Below, piece by piece: positions 10,701 through 12,096 of a DNA stretch of 12,096 nt. This stretch comes from a bacterium UBA3756 (GTDB taxonomy: Bacteria > Bacteroidota > Bacteroidia > Bacteroidales > Bacteroidaceae): positions 1-12,096 of the forward strand of contig DFGG01000122.1 in NCBI GenBank assembly GCA_002371695.1, given 5' to 3'. Made by a program: the position numbers and the translations under genes. The notes beneath the pieces are model-generated. The model had not been told where the DNA came from. It ran no database searches and was given only the letters and a program-made list of their open reading frames with translations. Each line of letters opens with the position of its first letter. Within the stretch, counting starts at the first letter, position 1.

Positions 10701-11054
10701 AAAGATACCACTTCGCCAAGCAGCCCGAGCCCACAGGTCCTTGGCTTGCGGATCGCTGGCCAGCCAGAAGCAGTTCATGTCGCTCAGACGGTCACCAGGC
10801 TGTCCTTCGTCCACCACCTGGGCATCATATTCGACTGTCATCCCGGCCTTCATTTTCTCCTTGCGCCAGAGGGTCAACCCCTTGGGAGACAACAGTTCGC
10901 AGGTATCACCATGGAACGTGACACGATAGTCGGGAGCCTCCGACTCCACACGCCAATACTTACCAAACTGTTTCTTGTTCAAGCCCGACTCTGCAGCCCC
11001 AGCCCCTATCACGAAACAAGCCAGCATGCTCAATATGAAAAGTCTTTTCCTCAT
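7785..11054 (-). CDS. Secreted DUF6250 + PcRGLX/YetA-like protein, putative exo-rhamnogalacturonan lyase (PL26-like)
   Basis: Probable secreted enzyme releasing disaccharides from rhamnogalacturonan by beta-elimination, as described for PL26 (Penicillium PcRGLX); Bacillus YetA is in the same superfamily. It is 1089 residues. Signal peptide 1-21 (MRKRLFILSM, then hydrophobic to AGAA). Residues about 30-230 look like a DUF6250-type beta-jelly-roll (NHWYHWKIESKQGHTRIFVDG, GWFGFRT). Residues about 260-310 match the first PcRGLX domain (LPIEFGVPFAQGEL, ASWPDGSVKWAGL). A beta-rich middle runs to about 640 (HTFLYDGDEKRD). An alpha/alpha-toroid-like part covers about 690-1089 (HEWRYDVGGFAWDNTEL, VTHWGCGAKEARISQ, FYYYLTTDERTGD). 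An in-frame ATG at 11120 was rejected because it lies upstream of the consensus promoter and would precede the signal peptide with 22 unrelated residues. It appears monocistronic. Family recognition is fairly firm; lyase activity and substrate are inferred. Confidence 0.82.
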   Translation of the reverse strand: MRKRLFILSMLACFVIGAGAAESGLNKKQFGKYWRVESEAPDYRVTFHGDTCELLSPKGLTLWRKEKMKAGMTVEYDAQVVDEGQPGDRLSDMNCFWLASDPQAKDLWARAAWRSGIFVRCYTLQMYYLGFGGNHNTTTRFRRYNGDEAGVENAQKRPAILKEYTDAAHLLKANHWYHWKIESKQGHTRIFVDGECIVDYLDPEPLEEGWFGFRTTLSRTRITNFKSYDTPVLSYKTSGVPLHWIGAVPVFSGESRCSGLSGNLPIEFGVPFAQGELKDVSQLTLSEGIPTDAWVTASWPDGSVKWAGLSAVVPADAKQVKVQQKPKKQKVAGGLVIDDGAGQLVINTGRLKAYLSKSGNCLIDSLCLDGKRVGGQACLVASTAEGDFLSVIRSMSVERSGMVRTVVKVEGSHRSATGREWLPFTVRLYFYAGSEQIRLAHTFLYDGDEKRDMITSLGVRFKVPMRDEVYNRHIAFATEDGGVWSEPVQPLDGRRDLRIGEKGNRRNLQAEQMAGQRVPAYKEFNKQNQHLLDHWAQWDGYRLSQLTDNSFSIRKRATDVSPWIGTFTGGRAPGYAFVGDVSGGLGVGLKDFWQSYPSTIQVDKARSDEAELTMWLWSPEAEEMNLCHYDTIAHDLIASYEDVQKGMSSPYGIARTNILWILPSDGYHGKADFSTAASSVMSDARLLPTPEYLYEKRAFGIWSLPKSGKVEARLSQYIDFYQKAIEQNKWYGFWNYGDMMHAYDPERHEWRYDVGGFAWDNTELATPMWLWYNFLRTGRSDIWQMAEAMTRHCSEVDTYHIGPFAPLGSRHNVTHWGCGAKEARISQAAFDRFYYYLTTDERTGDLMREQTDADTLLYHLDPMRLAEPISKYPCSAPARLRVGPDWLAYAGNWMTEWERFGTTKYRDKIVAGMESIAELPDGIFTGNLAKGYDPATGRLSYDGDPNLRKTNHLLTIMGGFELMNELMFNVQSPARPKDACYQRDARKFNECWADFARRYKQMAFEVQGSTFPVRRLEAYAAWLDRDAARAKNTWQALWGQADNDLFLSDKARQLLPPEVPAPLDELDGISTNNAALWSLDAIYMLEVLP

Positions 11055-11081
11055 TTTTGTCTTGTTTTTAGTAGTTTGCTG

Positions 11082-11113
11082 CAAAGGTAAGCATTTTCCA
11101 CTGAACCGCCAAA
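11082..11113 (-). promoter_or_regulatory. Bacteroidetes-type promoter of the lyase-like gene
   Basis: On the minus strand the -7 element is TACCTTTG (11089-11082), an exact TAnnTTTG match, and TTTG at 11113-11110 serves as -33, with a 20-nt spacer. Transcription would start near 11075, giving a leader of about 20 nt before the ATG at 11054. No Shine-Dalgarno sequence follows. Its position rules against translation from the upstream ATG at 11120. Confidence 0.78.
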
Positions 11114-11124
11114 CAATCATAAAG

Positions 11125-11155
11125 AAAAAGTGATGAGCCTCGACTCACCACTTTT
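11125..11155 (-). terminator. Intrinsic terminator of the 33-residue gene
   Basis: A 12-bp stem (11144-11155 with 11126-11137, one G-U pair) with a 6-nt loop is followed on the minus strand by TTTTTCTTT. It starts 11 nt after the small gene's stop codon and ends about 12 nt before the next promoter. The A-rich 5' arm means it could also work on the opposite strand. Confidence 0.85.
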
Positions 11156-11166
11156 ACCTCTTTCTC

Positions 11167-11268
11167 TCAATTGTACCAAATAGATGTGTTCAGTTTGGGT
11201 TCGAAACTGTCGACACGTTTTCGGTCGATCTTCACTTCTTGCTCTGAGTTCTTGTTCTTAGTTGACAT
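11167..11268 (-). CDS. 33-residue small protein of unknown function
   Basis: Not recognised as any family. The open frame is ATG to TGA, 33 residues. It is hydrophilic and lysine/glutamate-rich in the first half (7 basic and 5 acidic residues in all) and ends in an aromatic tail, SIWYN. It has no signal peptide, membrane segment or cysteine. The case for a real gene is its signals: an exact TAnnTTTG promoter 32-39 nt upstream, the perfect Shine-Dalgarno AGGAGGT (11281-11275) with 6 nt to the ATG, and a strong intrinsic terminator right after the stop. It forms a closed transcription unit of about 170 nt between the GH2-like gene and the lyase-like gene. Alternatives are a short regulatory RNA that happens to contain a frame, or a peptide precursor. 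No maturation enzyme is nearby in the window. Confidence 0.7.
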   Translation of the reverse strand: MSTKNKNSEQEVKIDRKRVDSFEPKLNTSIWYN

Positions 11269-11274
11269 AAGCGT

Positions 11275-11281
11275 ACCTCCT
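11275..11281 (-). promoter_or_regulatory. Perfect Shine-Dalgarno sequence of the 33-residue gene
   Basis: AGGAGGT on the minus strand, 6 nt before the ATG at 11268. None of the four other starts in the window has a comparable site, and strong Shine-Dalgarno sequences are rare in Bacteroidetes. It fixes the start codon and suggests deliberate, possibly strong, translation. Confidence 0.8.
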
Positions 11282-11299
11282 ATAGTTAGTTTGACACCA

Positions 11300-11332
11300 C
11301 AAATATAAGGAAAAATGTGATACGTTAGTCAA
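11300..11332 (-). promoter_or_regulatory. Bacteroidetes-type promoter of the 33-residue gene
   Basis: On the minus strand the -7 element is TATATTTG (11307-11300), an exact TAnnTTTG match. TTG at 11332-11330 (within TTGAC) is a -33 candidate with a 22-nt spacer, slightly longer than usual. Transcription would start near 11293, about 25 nt before the ATG. Confidence 0.72.
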
Positions 11333-11340
11333 TCCGTTGC

Positions 11341-11360
11341 CTTATTTAATACTTATTTAA
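11341..11360. repeat. Two AT-rich 9-bp direct repeats upstream of the small-gene promoter
   Basis: CTTATTTAA occurs at 11341-11349 and 11352-11360, an 11-bp period close to one helical turn. It lies just upstream of the -33 candidate of the small gene and within 40 bp of the stop of the preceding gene. It may be an activator or UP-type element, or simply AT-rich sequence. Otherwise 11333-11400 shows no convincing terminator for the upstream gene. Confidence 0.4.
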
Positions 11361-11400
11361 CATTTTTCGGTACTTTCTTGCAATAATATTCACAATAGTT

Positions 11401-12096
11401 TCACTTTACTGACTCCAGGAACTCTACTTCCACGATGCGCAGCTCATTCTTTGTCTCGCCCCCGTTCTTAGCCTTGAAGAGGTCGAGCTCACCAGCAGCA
11501 GGCTCTGCCACCTCGACGATACCACCGAAGGCATCCTTGTCCTTTCCAGCTCCTTTCAGACGTATTGTGATCTCGCTGGTCTTCACTGGTTTTGTCGGTT
11601 TCAGATGCACATAGCCCAAGCTGCGAGGTGTCTCACCACTCCAGATGAGCTGCTTGCCAGCATATATCTCAAGGGGATAACTGCGCAGACGCCAGCCTGT
11701 AAGTTTCATGCAGATATCACTGACGAGAGCTTTCTTTGCCAACTTATAGGTGATCCAGGCCGTAGAGAGCCTGCCGTCATTCTTCCATTCGGAGAGTTCG
11801 TTATCGTCGTAGCTATTTGAAGCATAATCGGAGTCGAAGCCGGCTTTGGAACCGACGATGTCGACTCCCACCGAACGGGCGGTGAAGGAGGGTGCCAACG
11901 GCGTTTCGCCCCTGTCGAGCCTGCCCTTTAGCAATAGCTGTGGCAGATATTCCATTTCCGCTGACGCGCCACCCTGTAGCCTTTCACTTTTCACTTTCAG
12001 ATAGGCAGGCTTCAATCCCTCCGCGTAAGCAGAAAGTGTGATTTCCCCTGCAGTAGTGGTGGTCCGAACCAGTACACGGTTGACACCGCACTCCAC
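11401..12096 (-). CDS. C-terminal part of a probable GH2-type glycoside hydrolase with discoidin-like domain (5' end outside window)
   Basis: Only the last 231 residues plus stop are present; the frame is open to the right edge. The first visible codon, GTG, is an internal valine and not a start. Residues 1 to about 38 (GVNRVLVRTT...GEITLSAYAEGLKPAYL) resemble the final Ig-like domain of large family 2 glycoside hydrolases of PULs. Residues about 85-230 look like an F5/8 type C (discoidin) fold: SNSYDDNELSEWKNDG, AWITYKLAKKALVSDICMKL, YPLEIYAGKQLIWSG, and a final strand ELRIVEVEFLESV. Such domains bind carbohydrate or pack against the enzyme. The catalytic part is not visible, so GH2 is an inference from the C-terminal pattern and the PUL setting; other multidomain hydrolases are possible. 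It lies on the same strand and upstream of the small gene, 132 bp away, with no clear terminator. Confidence 0.6.
   Translation of the reverse strand: MECGVNRVLVRTTTTAGEITLSAYAEGLKPAYLKVKSERLQGGASAEMEYLPQLLLKGRLDRGETPLAPSFTARSVGVDIVGSKAGFDSDYASNSYDDNELSEWKNDGRLSTAWITYKLAKKALVSDICMKLTGWRLRSYPLEIYAGKQLIWSGETPRSLGYVHLKPTKPVKTSEITIRLKGAGKDKDAFGGIVEVAEPAAGELDLFKAKNGGETKNELRIVEVEFLESVK

Follow-up and report, generated by a model that had tools for sequence, protein, structure and literature searches.

The window, i.e. the whole stretch of 12,096 nucleotides that was analysed (contig DFGG01000122.1 of assembly GCA_002371695.1), contains a 33-codon gene whose product ends in the residues S-I-W-Y-N. 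We refer to this gene and its close relatives as family A of the SIWY genes. The gene, its signals and its downstream neighbour are arranged as follows.

11307-11300, minus strand: promoter box TAnnTTTG, here TATATTTG, 39 nt 5' of the ATG, read from the sequence
11291-11285, minus strand: AACTAAC in the short 5' UTR, read from the sequence
11281-11275, minus strand: Shine-Dalgarno (SD) sequence AGGAGGT, read from the sequence, with predicted pairing to the anti-SD
11268..11167, minus strand: 33-codon SIWY gene (family A), ATG to TGA with the stop included; translation MSTKNKNSEQEVKIDRKRVDSFEPKLNTSIWYN, 33 aa
11268-11266, minus strand: ATG of the window gene, read from the sequence
11184..11170, minus strand: codons of the S-I-W-Y-N tail, where the family A proteins are most conserved
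11155-11126, minus strand: intrinsic terminator hairpin of the unit, 13 pairs followed by a T-rich tail
11089-11082, minus strand: box TACCTTTG of the next gene, whose sequence indicates a separate transcription unit
11054 (probable ATG), minus strand: PcRGLX-like enzyme gene, the downstream neighbour, assigned by Pfam

An earlier note on this DNA had described a closed 33-residue unit with an exact TAnnTTTG box (which we take to be the Bacteroidota -7 box), an SD, an ATG-to-TGA frame and its own terminator, and all of these could be read in the sequence. The unit is compact, as that note stated, and it measures about 182 bp from box to terminator instead of the 210 bp given there. Within 10900-11500, one terminator-like hairpin was found against 0.4 expected from shuffling. 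The leader is short, its box lying so close to the ATG that there is no space for the two hairpins seen in a sister family (see below). The polysaccharide utilization locus (PUL) surroundings were likewise recognized, since the window contains, besides the PcRGLX-like enzyme gene, two TonB-dependent (SusC-like) genes and one SusD gene identified with Pfam.

Homologues in relatives were already recovered with the single window sequence. In a profile search of 398 genomes of the genus, strong matches (E <= 6e-5) numbered 34 in 33 genomes, 8 of which had supplied the 8 rows of this first profile (A1); family A is thus carried by a minority of the genus. At E <= 0.5 the tally was 98, the surplus being mostly short fragments. 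A larger profile of 38 members, including three sister-type rows, matched 131 database proteins at E <= 0.1, and among the 120 of these that were listed, 115 had SIWY[NTSD] as their C-terminal end (T in 51, N in 30, S in 24 and D in 10); P0095, P0105, P0107, P0110 and P0118 did not. Names, where given among the listed matches, were 'hypothetical'. One relative came from Xylanibacter ruminicola, and the named records with the gene were Prevotella sp. ne3005 and three Prevotella/Prevotellaceae assemblies with RUG numbers, RUG presumably standing for the rumen. Among 344 order-level genomes, more than a weak fragment was found in G001 only, which itself belongs to the same genus.

Searching genome contigs for the exact pattern gave five stretches, four of them with the gene, and two of these four (L051 and L052) seem identical to contigs G400:C35 and G052:C90. 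The fifth stretch, L049 from a Pseudomonadales MAG, contained no SIWY frame and was rejected. Weak 10-residue matches within a 53-residue frame occurred in many genomes; the examples that were read had neither a stop after the motif nor a family-like start, and these matches were not counted. With respect to a phage origin, one exact pattern gave 0 matches against viral contigs. The earlier note had placed the peptide outside known families, and our searches agree with it: there was no convincing match for the window peptide in Pfam or for 38 family members in NCBIfam and PHROGs. A literature search, which included five motifs entered as letters, returned no listing that describes the family, and this family of about 33 residues is apparently undescribed so far. 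Its predicted fold was uninformative (mean pLDDT 64.4).

The frame itself is under selection as protein. For 33 distinct 33-codon coding sequences, the summed dN/dS was 0.34 over 56 non-independent pairs with at least 60% identity, which indicates purifying selection in the comparison of synonymous and nonsynonymous changes that the earlier note had suggested. In these sequences, which were located through the SIWY codons themselves, the Ser codon was TCT in 20, TCC in 5, TCG in 5 and TCA in 3, the Ile codon ATT in 15, ATA in 11 and ATC in 7, and the Tyr codon TAC in 20 and TAT in 13. Furthermore, no internal stop was present in the 34 matches of E <= 6e-5. Codons 2-3 behaved differently, being almost invariant (TCA in 20/20 Ser, ACT in 24/30 Thr), which suggests that the start of the gene is constrained at the nucleotide level. 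Judged by this comparative record, together with the homologues in the genus, the window frame is a real protein-coding gene of a Prevotella-specific small-protein family, as had been supposed.

A short regulatory RNA had been named as the main alternative, and the same data bear on it. A regulatory or dual-function RNA whose frame carries little weight would account for the compact promoter-to-terminator unit and for codons 2-3 being nearly fixed at the nucleotide level. We nevertheless consider this explanation improbable, because purifying selection acts on the frame, whose C-terminal codons vary synonymously. In addition to the intact frames, positions 11110-11320 of the window folded no better than shuffled sequences (z -0.35), and no Rfam match was found in the window.

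Next to the coding sequence, the surroundings of the gene recur across family A. We fetched 41 units, representing 40 distinct coding sequences; L103-L105 proved to be of the sister type, and L052 is the same contig as L076. The units were found by their SIWY codons, which all 36 loci of the main fetch contained. A TAnnTTTG box was present in 34 of the 41 units, with 39 nt to the ATG as the commonest spacing, against 8/348 control windows, and a strict hairpin with a T tract followed in 25/41 units against 6/820 shuffles, beginning, where found, a median of 7 nt past the stop. AACTAA was present in the 5' UTR of 16 of the 41. With box and terminator, the family A gene thus looks like an independent transcription unit.

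What lies beyond this unit varies. The downstream gene pointed in the same direction in 19 loci and in the opposite direction in 17 (36 loci), and the upstream gene in the same direction in 15 and the opposite in 20 (35 loci), with every ORF of 90 codons or more counted mechanically as a gene and the redundant L048, L051, L074 and L085 omitted. Pfam analysis of 58 chosen flanking proteins revealed no common family, the most frequent among the 25 of 105 families listed being GDSL lipases with at most 4. Because both neighbours and orientation vary, we propose that the family A gene acts in trans. One arrangement that recurs concerns TerC, whose gene lies downstream in six loci, all with a TSIWYN tail; two of the six were among the 58 neighbours. 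In L076, L081, L082, L092, L098 and L048, the family A gene is immediately 5' of a gene for a TerC/Alx-like membrane protein.

This arrangement, together with conserved residues immediately 5' of the stop and a terminator so close behind it, is what might be expected of a cis-acting leader peptide or attenuator, in which a ribosome on the SIWY codons and stop would govern the terminator and the following gene. Such a mechanism needs a constant co-directional gene, and instead the next gene is opposite in 17/36 loci, and that of the window has its own promoter box. We regard a cis-acting leader as highly improbable.

The suggestion in the earlier note that the peptide modulates an enzyme or transporter of the surrounding pectin PUL draws on the SusC/SusD locus and the adjacent PcRGLX-like enzyme. 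An orthologue of this enzyme was present in 37 of 200 genus genomes, and when 15 of its loci were fetched, a SIWY frame was found in the flank of G001 only, where the enzyme is 98% identical; of the other 14 loci, L243, L244 and L251 end less than 200 nt from the start of the enzyme, leaving 11 informative. Other family A members adjoin unrelated genes, and in the window a separate TACCTTTG box serves the enzyme gene, beyond the terminator of the small gene. The expected recurrence beside PULs and the link to this one were thus not borne out, and there is very little chance that the peptide is a PUL modulator. Because neighbours differ and PcRGLX orthologues mostly lack the SIWY frame, the PUL location of the window gene looks incidental.

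The most unusual property of the unit is its SD. The earlier note had listed a perfect SD among the ordinary expression signals; AGGAGGT is indeed present, and it is anomalous in Prevotella. GGAGG was found 4-22 nt 5' of the ATG in 31/41 family A units, compared with 5/325 neighbouring genes when their first ATG was used and 7/325 when an ATG at any of their first 40 codons was allowed. The predicted pairing of the window SD with 5'-ACCUCCUU-3' was -11.5 kcal/mol. Median predicted values were -9.5 kcal/mol for family A, -10.2 for the sister family and 0.3 for the 325 neighbouring genes, and pairing of -8 kcal/mol or stronger was predicted for 31/41 family A units, 53/59 sister units and 7/325 neighbours (13/325 with their best ATG), all energies having been computed with an 8-nt anti-SD only and not the full 16S tail.

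Ten of the 41 units lack GGAGG, L050 owing to the start chosen. Five of these (L087, L089, L091, L095 and L107) constitute the KKPMPSIWY subclade, and because its five units are without GGAGG, the SD seems to be dispensable there.

According to PMC9976891, few genes of Bacteroidia have an SD, their ribosomes are reported to sequester the anti-SD in a pocket of bS21, bS18 and bS6, and strong SDs are kept on rpsU or, in Bacteroidales, on rpsR. Our calculations for Prevotella gave median pairing of -11.3 kcal/mol for rpsR and 0.6 kcal/mol for rpsU. A strong SD was present in 8/8 rpsR genes with an intact start (L229-L231, L233-L237) and in 0/10 rpsU genes (L219-L228). Like rpsR (bS18) in Bacteroidales and rpsU (bS21) in Flavobacteriales, the SIWY genes have a strong, normally spaced SD although their lineage otherwise avoids SDs, and the duplex energy of the Prevotella rpsR SD equals that of the window gene. 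As in the SD-controlled set of the rpsR/rpsU type, the SDs of family A are far stronger than the genome background. The SIWY genes differ from rpsR and rpsU in that they do not encode ribosomal proteins and stand alone as units, and regulation through their SD is putative. Furthermore, the extended pairing below -13 kcal/mol associated with rpsU autoregulation in PMC9976891 is stronger than that of the SIWY genes, for which the window value is -11.5 and the family A minimum -12.6 kcal/mol.

Previous work (PMC3155529) reported that P. bryantii does not use the SD; in a reporter, an SD that was added, removed or lengthened caused no appreciable change according to the authors, and its full removal left 0.45 +/- 0.37 of wild type expression. 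If this result is general, the SD of family A would be inert in normal growth. Conservation of the SD probably means that the gene is selected for regulated translation, although for ordinary growth the data from P. bryantii argue against this.

Weak matches led to a sister family, D, with the motif YELDN[VI]YN...S[SP][IV]WYN, which shares the C-terminus and the SD with family A. Family D comprised 126 proteins at E <= 0.1; 120 of them were listed, and 104 of the 119 listed proteins that were absent from the first list end in S[IV]WY[NTSD], as do 23 of 105 further proteins. Some members retain the N-terminal half without SIWY. In L190 and L192, which are intermediates, the SVWY/SIWY tail is kept and the ELDN motif is eroded. 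When the two profiles were compared, with no D rows in that of family A, the last 10 columns alone matched (probability 92.7), and the common tail may reflect descent or convergence. At E <= 0.01, family D was found in 94 of the 398 genomes of the genus, a few of which, those with the weakest matches, may be fortuitous. When 125 of the genus genomes were searched with a variant profile, 27 matched, nearly all of them already known D genomes. In 334 order-level genomes, family D appeared only as weak fragments, in 4 of them. Both families occurred together in G008 only, whereas independence predicts about 8 such genomes (33 x 94 / 398); that A and D avoid the same genome is suggestive only, clades not being independent. 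No convincing match was found in Pfam (48 D members), NCBIfam (20 members) or PDB (D profile), and the predicted fold was again uninformative (mean pLDDT 62.7).

Several D loci have recurrent neighbours. In one clade (L179, L181, L182, L184, L186 and L187), the D-type gene lies 0.7-1.1 kb 5' of a 96-aa rpmA (bL27)-like gene, with a bL21-like (rplU) gene in between in five of the six, these identities having been assigned by eye. An mnmA-like gene, also identified by eye, is 5' of the D-type gene in L195 and L198. L191 of G008 has the same two downstream genes as these two loci next to a degenerate D-type gene, and the family A copy of G008 is elsewhere.

Terminators of D units were weaker (14/59 within 100 nt, against 2/590 shuffles), and many D leaders contain a structure that the window gene lacks. 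Of 59 D units left after redundancy was removed from the 70 collected, 26, some of them close kin, have two hairpins with complementary loops within the 95 nt 5' of the ATG, before the SD. The same kissing-loop score was reached by 24/1770 shuffles, 7/312 neighbouring genes and 1/40 family A units. The loop pairs change in step, as in GUCUC:GAGAC, GGCUCC:GGAGCC, UGCCGCA:UGCGGCA, UGUCGC:GCGACA and GUGCUCC:GGAGCAC, evidence that comes from a custom scan rather than a formal covariation count; some D starts were placed at an inner Met, and a MAFFT alignment of the leaders did not respect the hairpins. These leaders were found at L174-L177, L181-L183, L186-L188, L193, L194, L196, L197, L199, L203-L207, L211, L213, L158, L163, L164 and L168. 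Purine and guanidine-II riboswitches are leaders with kissing hairpins, which the D 5' UTR, often having two hairpins with complementary loops, resembles. Unlike them, the D leaders that were compared showed no Rfam counterpart (with Rfam 15, ten D loci gave no match at gathering scores and one leader gave a chance match only), and the window gene has no such leader. From its sequence features, the D leader is a candidate for a new cis-regulatory RNA of Prevotella.

The best rival to a free-acting small protein is a precursor that gives rise to a modified or secreted peptide. Its leader would precede a short core at the C-terminus, SIWY[NTS], and enzymes encoded elsewhere would mature it into a signal or a cofactor. 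PqqA and MftA are short precursors of RiPPs or cofactors with a conserved C-terminus, and the SIWY peptides share with them their size and conserved C-terminal aromatic residues. In family A the last residues are conserved behind a variable stretch, and type D keeps the N-terminal YELDN[VI]Y[NQ] while its C-terminus varies in some genomes, which resembles a leader and a core. The main weakness of this model is that there is no recurrent enzyme: in contrast to PqqA and MftA, the SIWY genes have no recurrent adjacent maturase, SPASM link or family match. The flanking proteins described above yielded no recurrent maturase or exporter, and there was no convincing NCBIfam match for sets of 38 and 20 members. 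A SPASM-domain protein is encoded directly 5' of the family A gene in L084 (G397:C9:24013-24177), the sole such case seen. Of 14 carriers whose genomes are at least 90% complete, nine have a SPASM radical-SAM protein (PF13186) at E <= 0.001 and five do not; it was present in 11/14 genomes without family A, and hence was not enriched. Four of the latter (G004, G020, G045 and G062) carry family D, so that the contrast is unclean and the real argument lies in the five carriers without SPASM. We therefore judge a precursor peptide to be unlikely.

We favor, tentatively and at somewhat less than even confidence, a stand-alone, SD-gated small protein that would act in trans by docking its C-terminal SIWY[NTS] on a putative partner. 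A fixed tail on a variable, charged and apparently unstructured remainder suggests a docking peptide, a free-standing gene suggests action in trans, and the conserved SD suggests that production is tied to the state of the ribosome. The free-standing gene would encode a small soluble protein. The anti-SD is normally hidden in Bacteroidota ribosomes, and a conserved SD may favor translation on ribosomes with an exposed 16S 3' tail, as has been shown for rpsU in Flavobacterium and is conceivable for rpsR. The peptide might then be a flexible charged arm that docks through its C-terminal aromatic tail, and its putative partner would be widespread in Prevotella and might be the translation machinery. 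Several results count against this proposal: our searches found no partner for the SIWY tail, only a minority of the genus carries the family, 10 of the 41 units are without GGAGG, and the predicted folds are uninformative. MciZ, SgrT and Sda are free-standing small proteins of other phyla that work through a short segment; the SIWY proteins would share with them a single gene, a small peptide and action in trans, and they differ in phylum and in having a partner that is putative.

In a more speculative and, in our estimation, doubtful extension of the docking proposal, the SIWY genes of Prevotella would, next to ribosomal protein genes, be expressed specifically by ribosomes whose anti-SD is exposed. 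The small protein would arise only while the bS21/bS18 pocket stands open, with the kissing-loop leader of family D tuning access to the SD and the SIWY tail feeding back on translation.

Genus-specific small-protein families are common, accounting for about 52.6 of 96.7 million families in PMC11364881. A new small-protein family alone is thus of modest interest, which the conserved SD and the leader raise. Regardless of mechanism, the SIWY proteins form a coherent family of small proteins that share a conserved C-terminal tail, and there is a structured RNA leader for which Rfam 15 gave no match. If the exposed-anti-SD proposal is true, Prevotella, an abundant rumen and gut genus, would use SD-anti-SD pairing beyond the autoregulation of ribosomal proteins, and a 33-codon gene with a 7-nt site would provide a handle on why Bacteroidota keep an anti-SD that they hardly use.
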